Shown: positions 2,728 to 24,258 of the stretch, one piece after another
Layout of the letters: each line of letters begins with the position of its first letter
Position numbering within the stretch: the stretch's first letter is position 1
Origin: a virus
Virus record (IMG/VR): IMGVR_UViG_3300011113_000176
Coordinates: 1 to 28,684 of that record
Length of the DNA: 28,684 bases
Strand: one strand, 5' to 3'
Notes under the pieces: model-generated
Told to the model about the DNA's origin: nothing
Databases searched by the model: none
The model's input: the letters and a program-made list of their open reading frames with translations, nothing else
Translations under genes and position numbers: made by a program

Positions 2728-2990
2728 TAGTATCCCTCCTCAACATCATCGTCTTCTTCTTCTTCATCTAACTCATAGTCTTCATCTTCGTCATCTTCGA
2801 TGACTTCTTCTTCTATGATTGTTTGTCCGGGGAATCCCCATTCAGGTAATTGACTGATGGTTAGATCTAGCGATTCCTTGCGTGTAAAACCGGCAGCCAT
2901 ATATGACTCCATAAGCTTATGAGCTTCTTGTGCCATAGCAAGCATCGGATTTAACGGCTCCGTCATCAGAACAAAGTTTTGTTCTGCCAT
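2727..2990 (-). CDS. Acidic-tailed small protein, unknown
   Basis: 87 aa, ATG at 2990 after AAAGGAAAACC. The first 55 residues form a compact helical domain (LNPMLAMAQEAHKLMESYMA, then GFTRKESLDLTISQLPEW). The last 30 residues are nearly all Asp/Glu (VIEDDEDEDYELDEEEEDDD). Such tails are seen in chaperone-like and DNA-mimic proteins. Here it sits next to several very basic proteins and could chaperone them, but that is inference. It could also be a minor capsid or assembly factor. Confidence 0.65.
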   Translation of the reverse strand: MAEQNFVLMTEPLNPMLAMAQEAHKLMESYMAAGFTRKESLDLTISQLPEWGFPGQTIIEEEVIEDDEDEDYELDEEEEDDDVEEGY

Positions 2991-3013
2991 TGGTTTTCCT
3001 TTCTCCGTAGTTG

Positions 3014-3304
3014 TTATTCTTTAAACTTTAGAGTAGTACCGTCAAACGCTTTTCCGGCTTCATTAGACAACTTCACGGCTGCGTCTATATCTTTCTGCTG
3101 TGTAGAGCGAGGCTCAATACCCTGACGCACTGCCGAATAATAGGACGATAATTCTCTTTCGTCCTTCTTTACTTTTGTCTGATCATATCCACTCTTAGAA
3201 GGAGTGACACCAACGAACATAGGCATATTCTCTCTCCAGCAATCTGCCTCATTGATGTGATCTTGTGTGGGACAACTTGATTTACAATTTGGATTACGTT
3301 CCAT
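3014..3304 (-). CDS. Small protein with N-terminal cysteines, unknown
   Basis: 96 aa, starting MERNPNCKSSCPTQDHINEA with three cysteines in the first 22 residues (C7, C11 and a later one in ADCWREN), which could bind a metal. The rest is polar and helical (DERELSSYYSAVRQGIEP; DIDAAVKLSNEAGKAFDG). Its ATG overlaps the stop of the preceding gene (TAATG at 3302-3306). It belongs to the capsid-proximal gene group. No function recognised. Confidence 0.65.
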   Translation of the reverse strand: MERNPNCKSSCPTQDHINEADCWRENMPMFVGVTPSKSGYDQTKVKKDERELSSYYSAVRQGIEPRSTQQKDIDAAVKLSNEAGKAFDGTTLKFKE

Positions 3305-3627
3305 TATGCCACCGGGGTTAAGTAATCGCCATACCCTGCTGCTGTGAGAACTGCTGCCTGGGTATCTGAAATTGTGTAGACGTGACCACCCAAGAAGTAG
3401 TAGTCAGCATTTGCCAGATCGTCCTGCGATGGATATTGGTTTTCTACAACTGTAGTTCCAGTAACAAGAAGTGCAACCCCTCTCGGGATATCAGTCATTG
3501 ATATTGGAATACTACCGGTAGATGTGCCACCATTGAATCGACGACCTGATAGGCGCGAGTATGGATCAAACTCATTACGAGCTCCCCATGTCTCATTACG
3601 CCAGGGTCCGTTGAGAATGTATGGCAT
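3304..3627 (-). CDS. Capsid-proximal small protein (possible decoration or head-fibre protein)
   Basis: 107 aa from the ATG at 3625-3627, which has a good AAAGGAAG ribosome-binding site. An upstream in-frame ATG at 3675 would add a peptide encoded by the hairpin region, so I reject it. The N-terminus MPYILNGPWRNETWGARNEF is followed by a serine/glycine stretch, then PRGVALLVTGTTVVENQYPS, DDLANADYYFLGGHVYTISD and a final AAVLTAAGYGDYLTPVA. This looks like a beta-rich virion protein. It is the first gene after the major capsid gene, a common place for a capsid decoration or cement protein, but I cannot name a family. Confidence 0.6.
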   Translation of the reverse strand: MPYILNGPWRNETWGARNEFDPYSRLSGRRFNGGTSTGSIPISMTDIPRGVALLVTGTTVVENQYPSQDDLANADYYFLGGHVYTISDTQAAVLTAAGYGDYLTPVA

Positions 3628-3646
3628 TTCTTCCTTTCTTGTGGTC

Positions 3647-3669
3647 GGGTGGGGCATAACACCCCACCC
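3647..3669 (-). terminator. GC-rich hairpin after the major capsid gene
   Basis: A perfect 8-bp stem (GGGTGGGG with CCCCACCC) encloses a 7-base loop, between the capsid stop at 3685 and the next start at 3627. No T-run follows on the coding strand. It could be an actinobacterial-style terminator without a U-tract, or a 3' stabiliser that raises capsid mRNA relative to downstream genes. Confidence 0.55.
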
Positions 3670-3684
3670 TTCCAAATACGGTTA

Positions 3685-4860
3685 TTAGCCGTTTGATGCA
3701 GCAGACTCGATACGATAGAGTGCTGATTCGCGGAGGCGGTTCCAGCCACCGAACATGTACCAACCGATGGTACGGAAACGACGGAGTGCGTCGATTTCTG
3801 GACCAATAACGGTTGAGATGTCCTGGGCAAGAGCCTCAGCAAGTGCTTCACGACCTGCGATAATCGCACGGTAGTTATTCGTGAAGGTGACAGTTCCTGT
3901 TGCTGCGGCAGACGCAACGTTTGATGCGGTCTTAGCATAGGAGAATGTCGTGGTGGTCCCAACAGCCGTAATGGTGAAGGTACCATTGAAGGTAGCGTCA
4001 ACGCCAGAGACGGTAACGACCTGTCCGACACCAAGACCGTGTGCTACGGAAGTGGTGAGGGTTGCAACGTTGGAAGTAAGTTCCTTGTTGGTTACGGAAA
4101 CAGTTGTGCTGATTCCGGAAGCAAGTGGCATACCATTGAGAACGCGTGGGGTCTCAACAATGTATGCACCTTCGATTGCACCAACTGCACCAGCGACGAA
4201 CGGTGTACGCTCGACATACTTGGTGAGCTCTTGGAATCCGCCAGTACCAGTCTCAGAGCGGAGATCCGCTGATTGACGTGGGTGGAGGTATGCAGCATAA
4301 AGCTCGCCCATACGAGGCAATGCCTTGTTGGTACGGAGTGATACGACTGCGTTGCGGATGTCAGCTACGGTGATAACATCGCTTGGCTCAACAGTTGCTG
4401 AGGACGATGGATCGGTGCTGCCACCGGTTGCGTAGATAACGTTGGTTCCTGCAGAAAGAACTTGACCGACAACGTTGTCGATGCTGTCTGCTGCGTTGTA
4501 GGCGATGATATCAGCAAGTGCTGCATCAACGTCGTTGAACGATGTGAGGTTAAGCTTCTTGGTCGTGGTGACTGCTGAGCCGTACTCATTGAGTGTTACA
4601 GTAACCTGTGATGGGTTACCGAGTGCAATGCTGTTTACATCGGAAGACTCGCTCAAAGTCGAAGTGGCTTGTGCCAAATCTGAATAGATTGAGAAGACTA
4701 CCGAAGAACCTGGCATTGCTTGCTGTACTGGTTTTACATCAGCTAGCGAACGCATTACAGGAATGGAGCGAAGCGCCATTCTTACATACTGATCGTATGC
4801 TGTAGTTACGAGCGCACTGATGGTACTGGATGAGGTTATTGAACCGCCAGGTAGTGCCAT
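3685..4860 (-). CDS. Major capsid protein (N4-gp56-like HK97 fold) with inserted beta domain
   Basis: 391 aa, ATG at 4860. The N-terminal half follows the N4-gp56-type capsid pattern: a helical arm (ISALVTTAYDQYVRMALRSI), PVMRSLADVKPVQQAMPG, SSVVFSIYSDLAQATSTLSE, VTVTLNEYGSAVTTTKKLNL and the helix DIIAYNAADSIDNVVGQVL. The centre has HPRQSADLRS and GAYIVETPRVL. The C-terminus (YRAIIAGREALAEALAQDIS and IGWYMFGGWNRLRESALYRI) completes the fold. Residues about 251-327 form a separate Thr/Val-rich beta module (NVATLTTSVAHGLGVGQVVT, VDATFNGTFTITAV) that resembles modules found in other phage surface proteins, so it probably projects from the shell. The scaffold gene lies just upstream, as expected. 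Confidence 0.85.
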   Translation of the reverse strand: MALPGGSITSSSTISALVTTAYDQYVRMALRSIPVMRSLADVKPVQQAMPGSSVVFSIYSDLAQATSTLSESSDVNSIALGNPSQVTVTLNEYGSAVTTTKKLNLTSFNDVDAALADIIAYNAADSIDNVVGQVLSAGTNVIYATGGSTDPSSSATVEPSDVITVADIRNAVVSLRTNKALPRMGELYAAYLHPRQSADLRSETGTGGFQELTKYVERTPFVAGAVGAIEGAYIVETPRVLNGMPLASGISTTVSVTNKELTSNVATLTTSVAHGLGVGQVVTVSGVDATFNGTFTITAVGTTTTFSYAKTASNVASAAATGTVTFTNNYRAIIAGREALAEALAQDISTVIGPEIDALRRFRTIGWYMFGGWNRLRESALYRIESAASNG

Positions 4861-4884
4861 TAGCGTTTGCCTTTCTTAGTCGGG

Positions 4885-5355
4885 TTATAGTCCAGATTCC
4901 CGAATGATTTGATCCAACTCTTCTCGAGAGTTAGCATTCATAAGACGACGGTGGATATCTTCTTGCCTGTCTGGCGTGATTCCTTGGCTTGTAGCCTGCG
5001 TCATTTTGCTGTAATCCTGAGCGACCTTTGGGTCGACATTCGGGGTTGTTTGCGGAGCTGACTCAAAACCGAATACATCGGAATATTCTGTCAGCCACTT
5101 GGAGATCGCATCTTCTGATGGCTCGATATCTCCTGGGATAAAAGCCGCAATCTTTGCATTCACTCCTTTGGCGGTGAGAGCGTCTTTGATTGCTCTCTCA
5201 CGTTGCGCCTTGGAAAGTCCTTCGAACTGAGACTTCAGTTCAGCAAGTTCTTTTTCCTTTTGCTTGTTAGCCTTACGGAGTTGTTTGACTAGATCACTAT
5301 TCACCTCTGGGGCTGTGTAGTCATCATCGTCATCGTCATCCCATTGATTGGACAT
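4885..5355 (-). CDS. Capsid scaffolding protein
   Basis: 156 aa, ATG at 5355 with a GAGAGGA ribosome-binding site. It begins MSNQWDDDDDDDYTAPE, a run of seven aspartates, followed by a coiled coil rich in Lys/Glu/Leu (residues about 20-55, LVKQLRKANKQKEKELAELK). A middle domain carries GVNAKIAAFIPGDIEPSEDA and WLTEYSDVFG, and the C-terminal helical tail carries NANSREELDQIIRESGL. Acidic start, coiled coil, the AAFIP/IEPSE motif and a position immediately before the capsid gene are typical of scaffolding proteins in actinobacterial phages. It should act inside the procapsid and leave before DNA packaging. Confidence 0.78.
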   Translation of the reverse strand: MSNQWDDDDDDDYTAPEVNSDLVKQLRKANKQKEKELAELKSQFEGLSKAQRERAIKDALTAKGVNAKIAAFIPGDIEPSEDAISKWLTEYSDVFGFESAPQTTPNVDPKVAQDYSKMTQATSQGITPDRQEDIHRRLMNANSREELDQIIRESGL

Positions 5356-5473
5356 AGTTAGTCCTCTCCCATTCTATAGTTGTTTGTCGATAGCCACGTA
5401 TTCACCTGGGGTAGTGGTACGGCTCTATCTACCGGACTCTTACGCTTGTGGGGCCGGTCGATCCACAAGAAAC
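5356..5473 (-). promoter_or_regulatory. Intergenic spacer before the scaffold gene, with hairpin
   Basis: This 118-base spacer is the longest gap inside the late operon. A 7-bp inverted repeat (CTTGTGG at 5445-5451 with CCACAAG at 5463-5469, 11-base loop) sits just after the stop of the 392-aa gene. Downstream, a TATAGAAT stretch lies about 20 bases before the scaffold ATG and could be part of a promoter, but I see no convincing -35 box. A terminator/promoter junction that raises scaffold and capsid expression is plausible. Confidence 0.35.
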
Positions 5474-6652
5474 TTAAAACGCTCCCGCACGTCCTTTTTC
5501 AAATGCGGTTGCTGATAAACCTGCTTGGCCTTCGAAGGCTGCTCTCTCTTGAGAAGCAAGTCTACGACGCTTTCTGCCAGATTCTATTCCACCAACTAAA
5601 CCAAATGCTTCAGCTTCTGCTTCAGCCTGGGTGTATCCTCCGCTATCATATATCTGTGATAGCTTCTGGCTCTCTGGTAAAATATTAGCAATGCTTTGGA
5701 AACCACGTTGAGCTTGTTCTTCAGATACTCCAGCTCCAACAAGTTCACCAATTCGTCCTGCTCCAGGTGCAGCAAGTCCTGCAGTTAATGCAGCTCCACC
5801 TATTTGAGCTCCACGAATTTTTCGTTCAATGTCAACCAATCCAGTTTTAGGATTGAGAACATAGCTTAGTATATCTCCATTTGTTACTTCTGGATAATAT
5901 GCCTTGAGCGATTGCATAACCTGTGGGTTAGCATTAATAACCATTTGAGCAGAAGCAATACGGGTATCTAACTCGTCGGGAGACACATCACCTGAGATTA
6001 ACGCATCAAATCCGGTTTGTTCTCCAAACGGACCTCGTTTCCAGTATGTATCCGGTAGGCCACGCTGTCTCATGACGCCTTGGTATGCATCTTCCATATC
6101 AAGATATGCGGCTTCAGAAACTGGCTGGAGTCCACTGGCAATTCTTGCAGTATTGGCTTTGAATCTTTGTTGATATGCTGGGGTTGCACGAAGTTGAAGA
6201 GTAAACTCTTCTTCTGGCAAGTCAGCTTGTACAAGTCCAACAATAGAATCATAAAGGGATCCAAGATTGCGAGCGTTAAGACGCTCTCTTAACTTATCAA
6301 ATGCTGATACCTTGTTGGTGGTTGTGGTAGTCGTTGCCGGTGGCAATGTGGTACCAGTTGTTGTATCAGTCATTGGTGGTATAAGACCACGAGCCTCTGG
6401 CGGAACTAACGACATTCCCGGGGTGAAAGGAGGCAGGGTTACATTTCCAATTTGTTCACCAGTAGGCAGAGACTTGCCTTCTGAACCAAGTTGTCTTGCC
6501 ATAATTCTATCAATGCCCTTGCCAGCCTGCATAGCAGATGCTGCTGCACTTTCTAAATTTTGGGCTCCACTAGTCTTTAGTTGTTCAATTTGAGTTTGAA
6601 CTTTTTTAAGTTGAGCTTTAGTGTTTGCTAAGGGATCTTTCTTTTTAGCCAT
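5474..6652 (-). CDS. Probable internal virion protein, 392 aa, unknown
   Basis: ATG at 6652 overlaps the stop of the gene upstream (TAATG). It has a coiled-coil N-terminus (LANTKAQLKKVQTQIEQLKT), then a Pro/Thr-rich linker at about residues 75-115 with a run of threonines, then a globular part containing FTLQLRATPAYQQRFKANTA, EAAYLDMEDAYQGVMRQRGL, NGDILSYVLNPKTGLVDIER and GYTQAEAEAEAFGLVGG, and an Arg-rich end (GRKRRRLASQERAAF). I recall similar LRATP-YQ-RF and NGDIL-Y-L-P-TGL blocks in proteins of environmental actinobacterial phages annotated as hypothetical. It is the last of four large genes between portal and scaffold, the usual place for ejection proteins. No enzyme motif is visible. 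Confidence 0.65.
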   Translation of the reverse strand: MAKKKDPLANTKAQLKKVQTQIEQLKTSGAQNLESAAASAMQAGKGIDRIMARQLGSEGKSLPTGEQIGNVTLPPFTPGMSLVPPEARGLIPPMTDTTTGTTLPPATTTTTTNKVSAFDKLRERLNARNLGSLYDSIVGLVQADLPEEEFTLQLRATPAYQQRFKANTARIASGLQPVSEAAYLDMEDAYQGVMRQRGLPDTYWKRGPFGEQTGFDALISGDVSPDELDTRIASAQMVINANPQVMQSLKAYYPEVTNGDILSYVLNPKTGLVDIERKIRGAQIGGAALTAGLAAPGAGRIGELVGAGVSEEQAQRGFQSIANILPESQKLSQIYDSGGYTQAEAEAEAFGLVGGIESGRKRRRLASQERAAFEGQAGLSATAFEKGRAGAF

Positions 6653-8235
6653 TACGCCTCAAATCCAAAATCGCGCAAGATTCTCATAGTTGCATTAGAA
6701 ACATCTTGCTCAGCATTCTTTGTGTACTGCCAACGAGGATCTTTTCTTAGCAACTTTTTGAAGTCAAAAATATTCATTCCGTTGTTTTGTAATCCTAACT
6801 GTACCATTGAATCATTTAGTTTGATAGTATCTGGTTGTAGTTCAAGAACATCTTGCATTGCAGTAATATATGGGTTCGCTATAGCACGCAAGTTGACGCC
6901 TTGGCCAAGTTGATTCTTCACGAAGTCCGATTGGCCAGTAGAGGCATAATTACGCATACCCTGCTCGAATGTTTCTGGAGATTCACCGGCGTTGATGGCC
7001 TGTAGAATTTCATCCATGCTTCTGTATCCCAAGACGCTTGGTATTTCAGACGTCGCTATACCATTCTGGAATGCAGTATCAAGTAACTGTCTGTAATTTT
7101 GTCCACCAGCACCACCGACAGTCGCCCCAGTTGGTGACATGCCGATTCGGATAAACGGACGAATAGCTGCATTGATAGAGAACTCGCTTCTATCTTGTCC
7201 CAGCATATACAGGCGGTCAGCGATTGTCCTTGCTTCCGTGTCGCTAATAGCAGCCCCTGCGTTTTTGGCAAAAGTTTTAACGTTTGCCATAACTTCAAAT
7301 ATATCTTGAGCATATTGGCTATTGCCAGATGCTTGATCTTCTGGGCCCATCTCTTCATATACAGCTTTATTATATTTACGCTGACGGATAGTCTGGCTAT
7401 TTTTTGCCACATAGTCAGATGTAACAACAACATTCTTAAAACGGTCTTGTGTTATCTTACCTTTGACAAAATCCAAATATGCTTGTTTCAACTTTGGATC
7501 TTGTTCGATAATAGCATCAATAAATTGATACTGGTCAAGGATCTGCTCGGCGGTTAGTTCACGGTCCGCCTCGGACTCTTTGGGAGTTGTAGCCTTCTTA
7601 GTCTGTGTACCCTTTTTACTGCTGGCTGCGGGAGCTGCTGAAGCTTGTGTCTGTTGAGGAGTCTCAGGTTGCTGCTCTCCTGTTTTGGCAGATGGTGTAA
7701 TGTCACCTTGTCGTGCAGTTTCTGGCGCAGTAACCACTCTCTTGCCAGTAGACTTTGCAGTTGGCTTAGGTGGTTCCAATTTAGAAAGAGTATTCTTTGC
7801 CGCGTTTACAGCCGCTTTAGCCTCAGATACTTTCTTGGACGTCTCTGCAGTTCCTTCAACAGCATTTGTTGCTTCAGCAACTTCAAGCTGTGAGGTAGCA
7901 AGATCAAGATCTTTTTCTGCTTTTTTCTTTTGCTTTGCTTTGGTCTCTACAGATTTCATCTTACTAGAAATCTCTTTTAGAGCATCAATCTGAACTTTTA
8001 ATTTTTTGTACTCTTCTGCTAGAGCATCTAGTTTCTTTTTTGCTTTCTCGCTCTTAGTGGCTCTTTCAATTAGTGGGCCACCCTCTAAGGCATCACGGCC
8101 ATAGATTTGGTCTTGCAAATCTTTAAGATATCTTTCGCTATCGCCAAGAAGTTCAGCAACATCGTACTTGTCATAGGACTTGGATAGTTCTTCTAATTTT
8201 TCTGGAGTAAAGATTGGCGGTTTTCTATAAGCCAT
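6652..8235 (-). CDS. Probable internal virion protein with long coiled coil, 527 aa
   Basis: ATG at 8235 overlaps the stop upstream (TAATG). Residues about 1-150 are lysine/glutamate-rich coiled coil (LDALAEEYKKLKVQIDALKE; KQKKKAEKDLDLATSQLEVA). Residues about 155-225 are a low-complexity Pro/Thr/Ser/Ala linker. Residues about 230-527 are globular, with QILDQYQFIDAIIEQDPKLK, ARTIADRLYMLGQDRSEF, NPYITAMQDVLELQPDTIKL and a C-terminal LLRKDPRWQYTKNAEQ block before ILRDFGFEA. It has no catalytic motif. Size, coiled coil and position beside the 1597-aa protein suggest a virion-internal or DNA-ejection component; a tail role is the alternative. Confidence 0.62.
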   Translation of the reverse strand: MAYRKPPIFTPEKLEELSKSYDKYDVAELLGDSERYLKDLQDQIYGRDALEGGPLIERATKSEKAKKKLDALAEEYKKLKVQIDALKEISSKMKSVETKAKQKKKAEKDLDLATSQLEVAEATNAVEGTAETSKKVSEAKAAVNAAKNTLSKLEPPKPTAKSTGKRVVTAPETARQGDITPSAKTGEQQPETPQQTQASAAPAASSKKGTQTKKATTPKESEADRELTAEQILDQYQFIDAIIEQDPKLKQAYLDFVKGKITQDRFKNVVVTSDYVAKNSQTIRQRKYNKAVYEEMGPEDQASGNSQYAQDIFEVMANVKTFAKNAGAAISDTEARTIADRLYMLGQDRSEFSINAAIRPFIRIGMSPTGATVGGAGGQNYRQLLDTAFQNGIATSEIPSVLGYRSMDEILQAINAGESPETFEQGMRNYASTGQSDFVKNQLGQGVNLRAIANPYITAMQDVLELQPDTIKLNDSMVQLGLQNNGMNIFDFKKLLRKDPRWQYTKNAEQDVSNATMRILRDFGFEA

Positions 8236-8966
8236 TATATACTAACCCCCAACTGTGACAATAGTATTTGGTATCCACTCATAGCACGCATGCGTTTAGC
8301 TTCGTCAGTTCCGGCAATCTGGTCTATCAGCATTTTCTGAGATCCTGCAGCGTCCATGCCCTGTACACTTAAACCAGTTTTGGGGTTGTAAGTCGACGGA
8401 CTTTCCATTTGCTTTTCTCTGAGGATGGCAGAGTATTTCATCTTGTCCTCATCGGACGCTGGCATACCGGTTAAGTCTCTGAAGATTGTATCGACAAGGT
8501 TTGCTGCTTTTTCTTCACTGTAAACTGTGGTATAAGTTTTTACTCCACCAGCAGTTGAGACGCCTTGAGCCGAAAGTGACAGATAGTCATCTATAGTAAA
8601 AGGTTGGTCTGTGAAGAACTCAGGATCTGACCGTACTGCGTCACTTGCGAATTCACTGAAGCGTCTGTTGGCGTCTAGCCACGCTTCTCGAACCCGTAGA
8701 TCAAAAGCATCAGTAATGGGAACCTTGTATCCTGAAGCCTTAAGTTTCGCAGAGATTGTTTTCTTCAACTCCGGGCTAAGTAATCTATAGGATCTTTTTA
8801 ACTCATCTTCCGAGGTCTGAGTTACACCTATTTGCTTTGTGGCAAAAGGACGGTCGTAGTTTAACGTGACCATAGACGCAGAGGTAATTAATCCTGGGGA
8901 TCCAGTTTGGCCAGCAAAGTCTTCGAATCCACCGGTATTGGTTGCCGCTGGTGTAGTCTCACTCAT
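8235..8966 (-). CDS. Unknown protein of the large-structural cassette, 243 aa
   Basis: The N-terminus MSETTPAATNTGGFEDFAGQ is polar and probably disordered. It is followed by a mostly helical protein with TSEDELKRSYRLLSPELKKT, REAWLDANRRFSEFASDA and YSEEKAANLVDTIFRDLTGM. No motif identifies a function. The stop overlaps the next start (TAATG at 8233-8237) and the gene lies directly after the 1597-aa gene. It probably works with its two large neighbours, in the way small internal proteins accompany large ejection proteins in podovirus-like phages; this is inference from order and size. Confidence 0.6.
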   Translation of the reverse strand: MSETTPAATNTGGFEDFAGQTGSPGLITSASMVTLNYDRPFATKQIGVTQTSEDELKRSYRLLSPELKKTISAKLKASGYKVPITDAFDLRVREAWLDANRRFSEFASDAVRSDPEFFTDQPFTIDDYLSLSAQGVSTAGGVKTYTTVYSEEKAANLVDTIFRDLTGMPASDEDKMKYSAILREKQMESPSTYNPKTGLSVQGMDAAGSQKMLIDQIAGTDEAKRMRAMSGYQILLSQLGVSI

Positions 8967-8967
8967 A

Positions 8968-11900
8968 TTAGTCCCTCAAGAAATTAGCGAATAGAACATC
9001 GAACGCTGAACTTGCATTTGCATCTGTAGAAGCTACTTCTCTCAACTCAATAAGAGCTGCTTCCCTTAGACTCTTTCTGATATTTACATCTTTCTCACTG
9101 CGAGAGTTGTACACAGTTCCTACGTTATACTGATACTCTTCGTAGATGTTAATCATCTTACGTATGGCATTGGCACCAGGAGTATCAATGTCTGTTTCCG
9201 CAAGCATGCGCTTTAGGTCTGCATAGGACTGTTGGCGTTCTACAACTTTGGAAGCAGACTCAGCTAGGTCTAACTCTAGCAATGGTCTTGTGGCCCTGTA
9301 TTCTTGGGACCACAGCCCCCACTTTTCTCTAAGTTGCTTCTTCTGTTGATCGCTTGTTGCGCGGGCCAACATGCTCTCATATACATCTCGTTGTTCAAAG
9401 TAATACTGACGAGATCTGGATACAAATACTTCTTGTAAGAAGTCACCAACAAGTTTGCTCTGTCGGAAACCTTCTGCCTTTAAAGTTTTGTAAGCATCGA
9501 ATGTAAACTCGCCGGTCTGCGGGATTAGGTAACTAGATCCCTCTGGATACTTCTTGACGAGGTCACGATTGTTGGCTACCCATGCAGAAGCTTCTTGGCT
9601 TGTCTTGAACCTACCCATAACACGTGGGTCGGATTCGCTCACGGTGAATGGTACTTGGTCTGGGAACAATCGCACCCACTCGGCCATAGCTCGTCCAACT
9701 GGATCTGGTTTGTCTGCGTATCTGTTGATAAGTTCTAGCCACACTTGCTTAAAGTTTGTTCGTTGGTTATCACGAACCCAGTCTGCCATATCGCTCTGGA
9801 GTTGGATTCCTGGGCTAGCTGGCACAATAAAACCTAAAGCAAACCGAACTCCCAAAATGCTGTGAATGGTTGTCTTGAGTCTGTCTTGGTACTGTTGTAC
9901 TTCACCAGGTGTGGCACCAACTGACGGTGTTTTGCCTGCTGCCTCTAGATATGTGACAGCCTTTCGGAATGCGGAGGCATATTGAGAATCCCTCTCATCC
10001 CTATCCATCAAGTTTAAAGCTTTGTTGATATGTCCTGGTAGGAAAGCATTGACGAGATCTGTATCTTCAGAGTACTTACCAAGAACATACTTCTCAGTAG
10101 ATGCCACCTCTCGACCAGCTCTTGATACAAAAGGAAGATCTGATTCTTCTAATGCTCCAGCTATCTTGTAGATAGTCTTGATGGGAACTGCAGCTAGAGG
10201 ACCGCTGAATGTAGGTATCCAGGAGTTTGGGTCTGCTGATGGCGTAAGCATCTTGATAGATGCACCAAATTGTAATGGCATTGGAGCCACAAACTTGTCA
10301 CCAAGACCGAATACACTTAATGCTTTGTTAACCGCATTGTATACTGGCGCTACACCTGGGTAGATAAAGTACGGTTCGCCCTGGTCATCTCGCTGTACGA
10401 AACCAGCATGGGTTACGCCCTCATATGTCAAGGCTACTTTACGCAGTCCTTCTGGACTGTACCTAGTCACACGGTATAAACGGCGGTAGGCGTCCTCTGT
10501 CGCACGATAGAACCGGGCAAAGTTACGCGTATTCCATGCTAAGTATGAACGCACCTCAGGATTATCTACGAACGATAAAACTCGTTCTACTGCCAAGTTC
10601 TCAGATAGAGCAACTACTTGACGAGTGGCTGCATCTTTGGCATAATCTAGTGGCATTCCGCTCTTGAGAAAAGATTCTTCTAGTTGCTTACGGAATGGTT
10701 CAAGGTCGCGTCGAATGTGAAACGAAGCGTCGATAACAAGACCATCTCGGGAGAACCTAGCGTTGGCCCCTGCTGCTTTGTCCCAACCCCAACGTACCAT
10801 GTCAGCAATATAGTTATCTGACTGAGAAGCTGGTATAAACTTTGGCAAGGTAAGTGCTATTGGAAGATCATCTATGTTCTGTGGTAAATCAGATACCTTT
10901 GTCACACCATTAGGATCGATCTTTAATACGCCATTCTTATCTGGCTTGACCATTTTGTCTAATAAGTTATTATTGATCTCTCCATTACGTCTGCCAAACA
11001 AGACTCGAAGGTCTTGGTATACAGCAGCCGCATGTTGAGATGAAGTATAGTTTAGATCTTGGTATCTTTCCATACCCTTTTTCATCTTCTGAAACTGGGG
11101 TAGGTCATCTATCATCTGTGATAACTCTGCGATAAACGCCTGGCTATCGTTCTGGTGCTTCTTAAGTAATACTATTCCTAGAGATGCAAGTGGATCTCGC
11201 GCTCTTGAACCGAGTTGGAATCCCCAACCAATGGCAGTTTCAGAATCTAATGCTCTAGGCACAAACTCTGAACCGTACATTCTTCGATAGTTCTTATCGT
11301 CAAAGGTGAAGTCTACTACTTTGCCACGCTTACGAGCTTGTCGGCCTACTGTGCTAATAGCATTCTGGCCAAGAGCAAAGTTGTATGCTCCCTCGGCTAC
11401 CTCACCAAGGAGGTTCTCGTAGTTTCCATACATGGAAAACTCGTACGCAAATTGGTCGTATTGATCTTTAAAGACACCTCTTACGGCATCGTCAAACTTG
11501 TCATCTAGTAGACCTTTTGCTAGGATTTGTCGCTTGGCAATATCTTTTTCAGATACTGTAGTAGCCACATTCCCATTGGCAAGCTTATAGGTGCCATTGT
11601 CAACTGCAGCAAACTCATTAGCTATCTCTTTAGACTTTCCGCTACGGACAAGTCTATTGATCATACCCAATTCAAGTTCTTTTGACGCAGTTCTGATCTT
11701 TGTAGCCTCGCGTCGTCCTCGTATGAAACCACGAACAGAGACACTGCTTGCAAATCCTACGATAAAGTCTTCGATTGCGTTACGTATTGGAAACCTTGGA
11801 CCTAGAATGGTGGCAGTTGTCCAGGCATCAATAATATCATCTGAAGCTTTCTTGTATTGCAAGCCCCAAACAGATCCCAAAATACCTTCGCGTGCCATAT

Positions 11901-20072: not shown

Positions 20073-20375
20073 ATGTCTAATTCGATTCTGGTCGCTCCCC
20101 GTTCTGCTCGCGTTACGCGCCAAACGCGCTACGCGCTCGCTGGTTCAGGGGTTCGACATAAGGCTCAACCCGTAACGATTACCTACCCTGACGGGCGGGT
20201 ATTGGTTATGGAACCGACACCTACGCGCAAGCGCAAGGGTCGCAAGCATAAGCCCGCAAGGGTCGCGAAAGTTGCGCCCGTAGTTGATACGCCCGCGAGC
20301 GTGTCGCTGTTTGATAGTGATTTTCGCGAGCGTTTGGCAGGGTTAGGCGGGTACGCGCCAGAGAGTTATCTCTAA
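20073..20375 (+). CDS. Small basic protein, first gene of the plus-strand operon
   Basis: 100 aa, ATG at 20073 with GAGAGGG six bases upstream. It begins MSNSILVAPRSARVTRQTRY, has a short beta segment (QPVTITYPDGRVLVMEPTP) and then a strongly basic block, TRKRKGRKHKPARVAKVAP. It ends with an acidic-to-neutral helix (VSLFDSDFRERLAGLGGYAP). The basic block suggests DNA or RNA binding. The coding sequence is notably richer in GC and in CGC/GCG codons than its neighbours, which hints at separate ancestry. The gene directly follows the control region and so is likely expressed early. Function unknown. Confidence 0.6.
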   Translation: MSNSILVAPRSARVTRQTRYALAGSGVRHKAQPVTITYPDGRVLVMEPTPTRKRKGRKHKPARVAKVAPVVDTPASVSLFDSDFRERLAGLGGYAPESYL

Positions 20376-20377
20376 TC

Positions 20378-20425
20378 GTACTAGGGCGAGTGGGGGTCAA
20401 ACCCCACTCGCTCACGCGGAAGTAC
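20378..20425 (+). terminator. Strong 10-bp hairpin after the first plus-strand gene
   Basis: GCGAGTGGGG (20386-20395) pairs perfectly with CCCCACTCGC (20402-20411) around a 6-base loop, and an outer GTACT/AGTAC pair (20378-20382 with 20421-20425) encloses it. It starts a few bases after the stop at 20375. There is no T-run, so it is either a U-less terminator/attenuator or an mRNA-stability element. Confidence 0.5.
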
Positions 20426-20576: not shown

Positions 20577-20777
20577 ATGAGTGAGGAAGTGAGCTTGTCC
20601 GAGTTGATACGGGCTCATCTTGCTTATGGTGGTTTGACTTACTCAATGGAAGTTGAGGAGCCACTCATGCGAGAGATTCCCGTAAGTGATGTGGTAGTAT
20701 CGGTACTCAAAGCGGTTGATGAGTGGTTAGATATTCCACTCGATTCCGATTTGACGGAAGTGGAGTTGGTTTGGTAG
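20577..20777 (+). CDS. Small acidic protein, 66 aa, unknown
   Basis: The ATG follows the preceding stop with no gap. It begins MSEEVSLSELIRAHLAYGGL and has the hydrophobic/acidic stretches MREIPVSDVVVSVLKAVDEW and DIPLDSDLTEVELVW. It is strongly acidic and helical, with no cysteines or membrane segment. Such small acidic early proteins often bind and inhibit host proteins, but nothing here identifies a target. Its TAG overlaps by one base the tRNA-like element described next. Confidence 0.6.
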   Translation: MSEEVSLSELIRAHLAYGGLTYSMEVEEPLMREIPVSDVVVSVLKAVDEWLDIPLDSDLTEVELVW

Positions 20778-20821
20778 CCTTGCCTAGTGGCTCTGCGGGG
20801 GTGCGATTCCCCCGCAAGGTA
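20777..20821 (+). ncRNA. tRNA-like acceptor/T-arm minihelix (possible tRNA remnant)
   Basis: A 7-bp stem (20777-20783 with 20814-20820, one G-U) stacks on a 5-bp stem GGGGG/CCCCC (20797-20801 with 20809-20813). The loop is 7 bases, TGCGATT, which fits the T-loop pattern except G for the second T. This is the geometry of a tRNA acceptor plus T arm. A 13-base linker replaces the D and anticodon arms and contains TAGTGG, as in many D loops. It is not a functional elongator tRNA. It could be a deleted tRNA, a tRNA mimic, or simply a leader hairpin. Confidence 0.35.
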
Positions 20822-20824
20822 CGA

Positions 20825-20847
20825 ACTACCGGCATGGTGTCGGTAGT
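20825..20847 (+). promoter_or_regulatory. 10-bp leader hairpin before the amidoligase gene
   Basis: ACTACCG (20825-20831) pairs with CGGTAGT (20841-20847), and three further inner pairs (G-U, C-G, A-T) close on a TGG loop. It follows the tRNA-like element and lies 30 bases before the ATG at 20877. The two together form a structured leader that could control translation of the next gene. Confidence 0.45.
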
Positions 20848-20876: not shown

Positions 20877-22058
20877 ATGGCGGAAGTTGAGATTACCAAG
20901 TGCGAAAGTTGCGACATTGAGCTTGATCGCGACAGCAGTTATATGTTGTCTGAATCAACTTATGGTTGCTCATCTTGTTACGATTCGTGTACACGCTGTG
21001 AGGAAGTTCATGAGCAGAACTACCTTGCTGATGTGTATAACCAAGGGTCATGGTGTAACGATTGTCGCTGTGATTACGCTTTCTTTTGTAATGATTGCGA
21101 CAACTTCTACGATTCTGACCGAGTTGGTTCCTACCACTTGTCTTACGGCACTTACTGTGAGGACTGTGTCGGCGATCACTGCTGGTGGTGCGATTCTTGC
21201 GATGAGTACCACGACAACGATGAAGGGTGCGAGTACAGCGAAAGTTCGTATATCAAACCTTACGGCTACAAGCCCGACCCCATCTTCATCGGGGAAAGTA
21301 AGACCAACCTTTATATGGGTTGGGAGCTGGAAGCCGACTGCCCTGCTATCAGTAGGGAGAGTTGTGCTGAGTATGCCTCACCTGTCCTTGAGGGTATCGC
21401 GTATATCAAAGAGGACAGTTCGGTGTCGCGTGGACTTGAGATAGTTACCCACCCCGTTGCCCATAACAAGGTGCGGGAGCTTGATGTGTATTGGGATACT
21501 ATCGAGAAGTTGCGTAGCCAGTTCGGTATGCGCTCTTGGGATAGCGAGCTATCTTGTGGGCTCCATATCCACCTATCCCGCAAGGGGTTTGGTGGTGTGG
21601 CGCATATCCACAGATTTATGCGACTTATCTACGGCAACGCTGAGCTTATGGCTAAGTTTGCTGGGCGTACCACAAGGTATGCCACCTTCCAAGATGTGTG
21701 GGACTTTGACGAGTTCGGTGTGCCACGCAGAACATATATCGGAAAGATCAGCAATACTCGCAGAAGTGGTGGGGAGCGCAATAGTGCGGTCAATACCTAC
21801 CCCGACCACACTATCGAGTTGCGATTCTTTAGAGGGACTATGAGCAAGACGGGTATCCTTGCCTGTCTTGACCTAGCGCAAGCGTGTGTCGAGTACACTC
21901 GCAACATGACTGCCAAAGATGTAATGGCTGGCGCGCTTGAGTGGGAGTACTTGTACGACTATATCGAGCGCAACAATGGTTTGTACCCTGACGCTTACAA
22001 TCGTATGCCCAAGGTACAAAGTATCAACCTATCCAAACGAGAAGTACTCAACGCATAG
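20877..22058 (+). CDS. Amidoligase-like (COOH-NH2 ligase) protein with tandem zinc motifs
   Basis: 393 aa. Residues 9-118 hold about 17 cysteines arranged as repeating CxxC pairs some 18-19 residues apart: C9/C12-C31/C34, C38/C41-C60/C63, C71/C74-C94/C97, C105/C108. These are LIM- or treble-clef-like zinc units. Residues about 145-345 match the amidoligase pattern (PF12224 type, glutamine-synthetase/GCS-like fold): GWELEA (148-153), IKEDSSVSRGLEIVTHP (177-193), CGLHIHLSRKGF (227-238), RNSAVN (301-306) and TIELRFFRGT (312-321). Such enzymes use ATP to join an amine or ammonia to a carboxylate. The next gene is a class II glutamine amidotransferase that could supply the ammonia. The substrate (peptide, cell-wall precursor or protein tag) cannot be inferred. 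Confidence 0.75.
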   Translation: MAEVEITKCESCDIELDRDSSYMLSESTYGCSSCYDSCTRCEEVHEQNYLADVYNQGSWCNDCRCDYAFFCNDCDNFYDSDRVGSYHLSYGTYCEDCVGDHCWWCDSCDEYHDNDEGCEYSESSYIKPYGYKPDPIFIGESKTNLYMGWELEADCPAISRESCAEYASPVLEGIAYIKEDSSVSRGLEIVTHPVAHNKVRELDVYWDTIEKLRSQFGMRSWDSELSCGLHIHLSRKGFGGVAHIHRFMRLIYGNAELMAKFAGRTTRYATFQDVWDFDEFGVPRRTYIGKISNTRRSGGERNSAVNTYPDHTIELRFFRGTMSKTGILACLDLAQACVEYTRNMTAKDVMAGALEWEYLYDYIERNNGLYPDAYNRMPKVQSINLSKREVLNA

Positions 22059-22070
22059 AGAGGAGTGAGT

Positions 22071-22904
22071 ATGTGTCTATTGACTGTGTGCGAACCTAAT
22101 CACACACCAACAAGGGAGCAACTAACAACTGCCTCTTGTAAGAACCCGCATGGGTTCGGGTATGCCATAGTTGCTGGTGATAAGATCATCAGCAATAGGG
22201 GTATGTCTGCCAAGAAAATCATCAACGAGTTCTTGCGTATGCGCGAGCAGTATCCTGACGGATATGCTATGTGGCACGCACGACTAGCAACGCATGGTGT
22301 AAAGAACGAGCTGAATTGCCACCCGTTTATGGTTGGTGGTTCAGATATGACTTATCTAGCGCACAATGGTATGCTGGATATCGAGCCAGCCAAAGATGAT
22401 AAGCGTAGTGATACGCGTATCTTTGCTGAGGAGTGGTTGCCTAGTGTGGGTATCGAATCGCTAGACAACCCGTATATGTTGGAGTTCATCAGTAGTTGGG
22501 CTGACTACAACAAGATATGTATCCTGTCGGTTGATCCCCGATTGACCTACAGTATGTATCTCATCAACGAACACTTGGGCAAGTGGGTTGATGGTATCTG
22601 GTGGAGTAATGACGGGTACAAACCAGCACCCATATACACACCAACCACCACAACTACGACAACTACGACATATACCCCAAGTACGGCGTGGCAAGCTGAT
22701 GAGGAGTGGTACAAGGATTACCCCGAAAGTGAGGAACCTATGTGGGTAACCTGCGATTCCTGCTTACAGGAGACTGACCTGTGGACAGAGGATTATTATT
22801 GTATCTGGTGCGGATCTTGTCTAGACTGTGGTAGTCAATGGCAGACCTGTCTGTGCTACACGCCCAAAGATCGTAGCCAACAGAATAGGTATCTCGAGTG
22901 GTAA
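22071..22904 (+). CDS. Class II glutamine amidotransferase with C-terminal zinc motif
   Basis: 277 aa from the ATG at 22071 (GAGAGGAG upstream). This start puts Cys at position 2, as class II amidotransferases need for an N-terminal nucleophile once Met is removed; a GTG two codons earlier would bury it. Other signature pieces are NPHGFGYAI (25-33), MWHARLATHG (67-76), CHPF (83-86), AHNGML (97-102) and SDTRIF (113-118). The enzyme should hydrolyse glutamine and pass ammonia to a partner. A Thr-rich linker (about 190-200, nine Thr in a row) leads to a cysteine cluster at 228-262 (CDSC, CIWCGSCLDC, CLC), presumably zinc-binding. It lies 12 bases after the amidoligase gene, strongly suggesting a joint reaction. 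The cysteine clusters of both proteins could pair them. Confidence 0.78.
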   Translation: MCLLTVCEPNHTPTREQLTTASCKNPHGFGYAIVAGDKIISNRGMSAKKIINEFLRMREQYPDGYAMWHARLATHGVKNELNCHPFMVGGSDMTYLAHNGMLDIEPAKDDKRSDTRIFAEEWLPSVGIESLDNPYMLEFISSWADYNKICILSVDPRLTYSMYLINEHLGKWVDGIWWSNDGYKPAPIYTPTTTTTTTTTYTPSTAWQADEEWYKDYPESEEPMWVTCDSCLQETDLWTEDYYCIWCGSCLDCGSQWQTCLCYTPKDRSQQNRYLEW

Positions 22905-23509: not shown

Positions 23510-23857
23510 ATGCTCAGTAACCTAGTCGGATTATGTACCGATTATCACGACCCAGACTTGTGGTTCTCGGATACTGACGACACCAAAGGTAAGGGCAGGC
23601 CGCGCAAGCATGAGCTATCTGTACGGGTAGAGAGAACACTCAAAGCCATTGAGATATGTTCTCACTGCCCGATACAGGAGCAGTGCTTAGAACAGGGAAT
23701 GCTACCTGAGAACATTGAGAACGGCGTGTGGGGTGGTGTCATGGCAGGAGAACGCATGGCACTAAGTGGTTATCCACTCAACACTACGCTTACTATCATG
23801 GCAGTAGAGTTTGCTAAGAAGGTGAGATCATTAAAAAGCCTGACAAGCAAAGTATAA
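23510..23857 (+). CDS. whiB: WhiB-like iron-sulphur transcription regulator
   Basis: 115 aa, ATG at 23510 with GAGAGGA. The four cysteine ligands of the WhiB [4Fe-4S] cluster are visible: C9, then C50-x2-C53-x5-C59 (ICSHCPIQEQC). They are followed by the glycine-rich turn GVWGG (72-76) and a modestly basic tail (KKVRSLKSL). WhiB proteins are restricted to Actinobacteria and their phages. They bind the primary sigma factor and redirect transcription; some phage copies repress host whiB2 or protect against superinfection. A 23-residue polar insert (TDDTKGKGRPRKHELSV region) precedes C50. This is the best host-range marker in the window. Confidence 0.88.
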   Translation: MLSNLVGLCTDYHDPDLWFSDTDDTKGKGRPRKHELSVRVERTLKAIEICSHCPIQEQCLEQGMLPENIENGVWGGVMAGERMALSGYPLNTTLTIMAVEFAKKVRSLKSLTSKV

Positions 23858-23877: not shown

Positions 23878-24258
23878 ATGTTAGCTGTGTCGATCATCCA
23901 TGACACAACTACCAAGCCTGTAAGCATACAAGTACCAAGGGAATCGGTACGACCTAGCATTCAGGAGTGGGCAAAGGAAGATAGTAAGACCTATGCCTTT
24001 GGCAAGTTGGGAGTGTGGGTCGAGAGGGAGTGGGTATGTCTTGAGAAGTTGTGGACTAAAGAATCCAACTGGAATCCACGATCTTATAATAAGATAAAAG
24101 TTGATGGGAAGAACGCAGGTGGTATCCCACAGCTTCTCGGACTTGACCCACGCACTCACCCGACATATCAGATAGAGCAAGGGTTGAAGTATATATATCA
24201 CAGGTACGGCACACCATGTAAGGCATGGTCATACTGGAAGGAGCACAAGTGGTACTAA
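23878..24258 (+). CDS. Transglycosylase-type endolysin with signal-anchor-like N-terminus
   Basis: 126 aa from the ATG at 23878. The C-terminal domain fits small lytic transglycosylases (SLT/Rpf-like): LEKLWTKESNWNPRSYN with catalytic Glu62, AGGIPQ (80-85) and IEQGLKYIYHRYGTPCKAW (99-117). It should cleave the glycan strands of the host wall. C54 and C114 could form a disulphide. The ATG lacks a ribosome-binding site and cuts into a hydrophobic run. The same frame is open upstream, reading KKPDKQSIIFVTLSIMLAVS. An ATT at 23830 preceded by AAGGTGAG would give a full signal-anchor and overlap WhiB by 28 bases. I list the conservative start. Confidence 0.78.
   Translation: MLAVSIIHDTTTKPVSIQVPRESVRPSIQEWAKEDSKTYAFGKLGVWVEREWVCLEKLWTKESNWNPRSYNKIKVDGKNAGGIPQLLGLDPRTHPTYQIEQGLKYIYHRYGTPCKAWSYWKEHKWY

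Follow-up and report, generated by a model that had tools for sequence, protein, structure and literature searches.

A near-obligate amidoligase–glutamine amidotransferase gene pair and a tRNA-like RNA element in freshwater actinophage early regions

The locus and its two enzymes

The window analysed here is the whole of a 28,684-base virus record (IMGVR_UViG_3300011113_000176). It carries two co-directional genes, separated by 12 nt, that specify an amidoligase (AL) and a class II glutamine amidotransferase (GAT), an arrangement that agrees with the operon described in the original prediction; upstream of them lies an anticodon-less, tRNA-like RNA element (TLE) (Table 1). The GAT start was placed at the ATG at 22071, the listed GTG at 22065 being mechanical, since all 41 of 41 aligned GATs begin with Met-Cys. 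WhiB is encoded nearby, as had been stated (nt 23510, 45.4 bits). The neighbour read as an endolysin is present (nt 23878, about 1 kb downstream of the pair), but PHROGs identifies it as a lytic-transglycosylase-like protein. No DNA modification genes, as a hypermodification reading would call for, were recognised among the window proteins scanned, and AL, GAT and four neighbours gave no match to the PADLOC anti-phage defence models at E 0.01.

Table 1. Features of the AL–GAT locus and its upstream region (window coordinates)
Feature	Position (nt)	Strand	Basis or remark
Gene for a small basic protein, 5' of the first-TLE position	20074–20375	+	Relatives have similar basic proteins ahead of the TLE
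Perfect 10-bp hairpin at the first-TLE position of relatives	20386–20411	+	Fold z −6.9; follows the basic-protein gene
TLE, anticodon-less tRNA-like RNA	20777–20820	+	Model R2, covariation; 56 nt upstream of AL
TLE acceptor stem, 7 bp	20777–20783/20814–20820	+	Followed by ACG (20821–20823)
TLE linker with GG, 13 nt, D-like hairpin	20784–20796	+	
TLE T-stem, 5 bp	20797–20801/20809–20813	+	
TLE T-loop, 7 nt, UGCGAUU	20802–20808	+	
Hairpin directly 3' of the TLE	20825–20847	+	Leader fold z −3.7
AL, GCS/glutamine-synthetase-fold amidoligase, 393 aa	20877–22058	+	ATG to stop; Pfam, AlphaFold2, fold matches
AL residues 9–118, 15 Cys in CxxC pairs, about four putative zinc modules	20901–21230	+	Conservation, model
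AL catalytic core (E150, E152, E188, H230, H232, R235, R264, N306, E314, R316)	21324–21824	+	Invariance
GAT, class II (Ntn) glutamine amidotransferase, 277 aa	22071–22904	+	ATG to stop; Pfam, AlphaFold2, fold matches
GAT residues 228–262, 8-Cys tail, two putative zinc sites	22752–22856	+	Conservation

AL scored 25.2 bits against Pfam Amidoligase_2 (PF12224), above the gathering cut-off of 22, and a protein with 39% identity to it is already labelled as an amidoligase in BFVD. AlphaFold2 models of AL and GAT were built from 47 and 42 sequences, respectively, all from the window and viral contigs. The AL model (mean pLDDT 88.5) matched, over residues 141–393, YbdK (1r8g, Z 13.9), plant glutamate–cysteine ligase (2gwc, Z 12.8), glutamine synthetases (Z about 12, for example 12.3) and Dop (Z 10.8), so that a fold of the glutamine synthetase/GCS type is found where it had been predicted. 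The catalytic-core residues, including the ExE, HxH and ExR motifs, are invariant across 52 aligned ALs, down to 18–31% identity. YbdK, glutamate–cysteine ligase and glutamine synthetase share this fold and these motifs with AL but are only 9–13% identical to it, and AL differs from them in having an N-terminal Cys-rich array. The pupylation enzymes PafA and Dop, glutamine-synthetase-fold proteins that act on protein carboxylates in actinobacteria, also resemble AL (Foldseek E 1.4e-4 for PafA, Z about 10.8 for Dop); unlike them, AL pairs with a GAT, and it is closer to YbdK and glutamate–cysteine ligase (Z 13.9).

GAT scored just at the Pfam cut-off for GATase_4 (23.0 bits, cut-off 23) and fell below that for GATase_6 (24.4 bits, cut-off 27). 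In its AlphaFold2 model (pLDDT 82.8) residues 189–220 are disordered, while residues 2–188 matched the glutaminase domain of GlmS (1xff, Z 14.8), EgtC (Z 13.5) and PurF (Z about 13). The modelled class II fold includes C2, which together with R71, H84, N99, G100 and D114 is invariant across 47 aligned GATs. Sequence, predicted fold and catalytic residues agree for both proteins and bear out the original assignments, an ATP-dependent carboxylate-amine ligase and an ammonia-releasing amidotransferase. As the catalytic residues are invariant in both alignments, the AL and GAT of the window look like working enzymes.

Both proteins carry the Cys motifs that had been predicted, N-terminal in AL and C-terminal in GAT, and these modules presumably bind zinc. 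The 15 Cys of AL are invariant in close relatives; in the model the region forms beta-hairpin repeats, and a Foldseek search returned a weak match to a LIM domain (4jcj, E 0.085).

Distribution of the gene pair

The AL–GAT pair belongs to an already described type of phage gene pair. According to PMC10580990, phage pairs of an amidoligase and a class II GAT were described by Iyer et al. (2009), whom it cites for phiEco32, and the pair of phage Marvin by Mageeney (2012); the amidoligase work of Aravind and co-workers, to which a link had rightly been drawn earlier, is its reference 58. The OM43 phages MEP401/402 carry an AL–GAT pair as well (PMC10580990). All these pairs resemble that of the window in consisting of the same two families, adjacent and co-directional. 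The GAT of Marvin-like phages has the same 8-Cys tail, but their proteins are 31–37% identical to those of the window, the Cys array of the window AL is longer, and the phage family differs. LUZ24-like phages also carry AL and GAT, in their case with an ATP-grasp partner (UFV-P2 has this extra enzyme and an HNH gene between the two), whereas the window has a simple pair without one.

Among IMG/VR loci found via GAT, AL lies directly upstream in 48/48. Conversely, when AL alone was used to find phage loci, GAT lay downstream at a spacing of −1 to 15 nt in 75 of 77, the other two being contig ends. The pair, for which a wider search had been proposed, recurs in other viruses. A GAT-like ORF was also present at 76 of 80 AL loci in bacterial genome assemblies, and 74 of 77 such ORFs were on the same strand as AL and within 900 nt of it, these being counts from assembly contigs, which can hold viral DNA. 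One example of the latter is L197, filed under a Rhodobacteraceae metagenome assembly, which has the AL, GAT and TLE of the present phage lineage and is probably a misbinned phage contig. Judged by record title, the assemblies are mostly of Clostridia, with Coriobacteriia, Planctomycetes and Bacteroidetes also represented, and nearly all of the homologues show 24–33% identity. AL and GAT are near-obligate neighbours, and since common phage synteny cannot account for pairing at this level of divergence, functional coupling is the best reading of the sequence data.

Several loci depart from the simple arrangement. In an Atopobiaceae assembly (L208, nt 3689–5935), AL and GAT are joined in one frame, which would make the GAT Cys internal; an internal start, processing or an assembly error are candidate explanations. 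Butyricicoccus pullicaecorum has at least six separate AL–GAT loci in one genome (L227, L232, L242, L245, L252, L253), which suggests repeated copies of a mobile element. Stenotrophomonas phage StenR_269 (L055, nt 2953–10327) has a cluster annotated as gamma-glutamyl cyclotransferase, amidotransferase, glutamine synthetase, ATP-grasp/D-Ala ligase, amidoligase and a second amidotransferase, and is a richer version of the AL–GAT chemistry. ALs without an adjacent GAT were found in Clostridioides phage AR1086-1 and contig MT839723, a point against the two-subunit reading given below: AL may take free ammonia or some other amine as well. In AR1086-1 (L050, nt 4743–6932) the amidoligase is followed by a gene for an RlaP-type nucleotidyltransferase (RNA repair), with kptA close by.

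Cultured relatives of the window's lineage are E7 and F5 (OX376640, OX376641), phages of 'Ca. Planktophila' (PMC10202952), with identities of 46% (terminase), 42% (capsid), 65% (sigma factor) and 74% (primase). From these two we infer the host of the lineage. Neither AL nor GAT was found in the E7 and F5 genomes, and the gene pair is therefore accessory in this phage family.

A tRNA-like element upstream of the pair

The window TLE matched the TLE model R2 with 49.2 bits (E 4.5e-10) and was the only clear match in the window. When about 1 Mb of locus sequence was scanned for the pattern, 47 TLEs were detected, all on the AL strand and all upstream of AL, with none downstream of AL, none on the other strand and none in shuffled sequence. 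The seed alignment (n = 11) retains 97% of pairs and has two-sided changes in 9/12, with covariation of 0.794 versus 0.228 in shuffled and at most 0.206 in slid alignments; the seed is a subset, a MAFFT alignment of all TLE types having misaligned the 5' arm. An alignment of 54 distinct TLEs, which was fitted to the model and so leans towards it, gave 96.8% of pairs kept, two-sided changes in 10/12 and covariation of 0.594 versus 0.166. The linker contains GG in 53/54 and its central hairpin folds in 41/54; it is about 11–21 nt long with at most one small hairpin, and there is no anticodon arm. A search of whole records with AL and GAT returned a TLE in 35/35, as one copy in 31 and as two copies within 600 nt in 4. 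Locus L194 has TLEs at nt 1387–1434 and 2163–2208, both on the minus strand. In E7 and F5, TLEs scoring 25.7, 25.0 and 21.7 bits were detected near the terminase gene, and the two E7 elements have fold z values of −3.9 and −3.6. BLASTN returned no match to the TLE in named phages, a method that is uninformative for a fast-changing RNA. Within the one phage family covered by the detailed tests, the TLE is a well-supported structured RNA family of the freshwater actinophage early region.

In the loci examined, the TLE starts about 6–9 nt past a stop codon, usually that of a gene for a small basic protein (L036, L066, L003, L002, L058, L132 and L068), while the window TLE overlaps the stop of an ORF at nt 20577–20777. 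The corresponding basic-protein gene of the window is followed instead by the 10-bp hairpin, which is not matched by model R2 and may tentatively be seen as a TLE that has lost its D-like part. By eye, a second hairpin follows most of the TLEs inspected in relatives. Also by eye, a −35/−10-like promoter sequence (TTGACx, 17 nt, TATACT), with the −35 within an inverted repeat, lies directly after many TLEs (for example at about nt 3085–3125 of L003, and in many related loci).

A known tRNA, tmRNA or Rfam family was rejected as an identity for the TLE: no Rfam family reached its gathering cut-off in 14 loci, ARAGORN found no tRNA in the phage loci, and the best Rfam tmRNA match in the window, at 11 of 84 bits, was below gathering. 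The TLE shares with tRNA and the tRNA-like domain of tmRNA a 7-bp acceptor stem, 5-bp T-stem, 7-nt T-loop and elbow GG, but it lacks an anticodon arm and an encoded CCA. Covariation on both strands of the acceptor stem, and matches in the loci that without exception read in the direction of the early operon, also make a phage attachment site derived from a tRNA 3' end unlikely. At lax thresholds, the nearest Rfam model was mascRNA-menRNA (RF01684), matched over its full length with 21.1 bits (E 0.021) in L003 and with 13.4 bits in L064, its gathering cut-off being 42.5 bits. These RNAs have a tRNA-like acceptor stem and T-arm with T-loop, a reduced D-arm with GG and a length similar to that of the TLE; the TLE differs in its phage mRNA context, in having no anticodon-like stem and in a score half the curated cut-off.

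Possible functions of the enzymes and the RNA

The best explanation of the computational evidence, namely both folds, the intact catalytic residues and the near-obligate pairing, from which we infer catalysis, ammonia transfer and zinc binding, is that AL–GAT is probably a two-subunit, glutamine-dependent, amide-forming enzyme. GAT would cleave glutamine via Cys2 and free ammonia, AL would use ATP to activate a substrate carboxylate as an acyl-phosphate, in the manner of glutamine synthetase and GCS, and the ammonia would capture the activated carboxylate to give a primary amide. The modified target may be a host protein, a wall precursor or a product of the mobile element itself. A role of this modification in the establishment of a mobile element is likelier than a core viral function, because the pair is accessory in the phage family and has mobile-type neighbours in bacteria: in the four bacterial loci scanned these included a type IV secretion system coupling protein, conjugation genes, resolvases and a replication protein. 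The module would thus aid mobile elements in particular hosts, outside the making of virions and replication.

Two narrower accounts of the enzymes appear less probable. MurT-GatD and LtsA/AsnB amidate peptidoglycan precursors, and a similar activity of AL–GAT could change the wall so as to exclude other phages or tune lysis. The actinobacterial phage lineage (WhiB) and the transglycosylase-like gene downstream fit this account, as does the published suggestion that the phiEco32 pair provides superinfection exclusion by wall modification (PMC10580990). It is nonetheless unlikely: the AL fold is that of GCS and glutamine synthetase rather than of Mur ligases, the transglycosylase-like gene is also found in E7 and F5, which are without AL–GAT, and one bacterial copy of the pair adjoins conjugation genes. 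The other account, part of the original prediction, has the two enzymes kept in one complex by mutual binding of their zinc modules. Both modules are retained in this lineage and in Marvin-like phages, but their distributions do not match as those of docking partners should. At least four CxxC motifs precede the active site in 78 of 83 AL ORFs of bacterial assemblies, and this near-universal array is therefore a general part of the family. The 8-Cys tail of GAT is kept in 43 of 47 aligned GATs, mostly from phages, yet it is restricted almost entirely to this lineage and to phages like Marvin. Among the bacterial partners, 68 of 77 lack any CxxC after residue 190; MW202733 combines a Cys-rich AL with a GAT devoid of all eight Cys, and the MEP401 GAT also lacks the tail. 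Mutual docking is thus quite improbable, and presentation of a macromolecular substrate is a likelier task for the Cys modules of AL than the docking of GAT.

A joint system, in which AL–GAT acts on the TLE or on something attached to it, was also considered, as the association looked perfect: besides the 35/35 whole records with AL and GAT, 39/39 contigs that had been picked solely with two RNA patterns and that extended 1 kb or more downstream of the RNA contained AL there. It was rejected as extremely unlikely, since E7 and F5 have TLEs and neither enzyme, and since the genomes of this lineage keep a common gene order, so that genome-wide synteny explains the association. Nor was a convincing TLE found at the AL–GAT of Marvin-like phages, of MEP401 or of the tested bacterial loci, the phage contig L197 excepted. 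(At bacterial locus L203, a weak R2 match group includes an ordinary tRNA-Leu.) With TLEs present where the enzymes are absent, and no convincing TLE at other AL–GAT regions, the best reading is that the TLE is a family-wide early-region element separate from AL–GAT. As for the role of the RNA, RNase P and RNase Z release human mascRNA from MALAT1, recognising the elbow that the T-loop makes with two guanines of the D-loop (PMC11693755). That the TLE is a comparable signal in early phage mRNA, where a cut at the base of the stem would free the 3' end of the upstream mRNA and the next cistrons, has a prospect just short of even. The stack of 12 bp formed by the acceptor and T-stems, the T-loop and the almost invariant linker GG would supply the elbow read by RNase P/Z (PMC11693755), and the position of the TLE just past or overlapping a stop codon and the nearest Rfam model are in keeping with it. 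Against it, ACG instead of CCA follows the stem, and the −35/−10-like sequence seen after many TLEs makes termination or regulation possible instead.

AL–GAT is a widespread and unexplained pair, and its near-obligate association and intact active sites, common to phages and bacterial assemblies, narrow the assays by which its activity might be sought; relatives without it, such as E7 and F5, offer a comparison. The TLE reaches no Rfam cut-off, and a literature search found no paper on such a tRNA-like element in phages, which is not proof of its absence elsewhere. By analogy with mascRNA, we propose more tentatively still that a new class of tRNA mimic, excised by host RNase P/Z, may be carried by early mRNAs in this abundant family of freshwater actinophages. 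If so, a phage would make mRNA 3' ends in the mascRNA style, by a route that either converged on tRNA or was captured from it, and the use of tRNA mimics in mRNA processing would be known from phages too.
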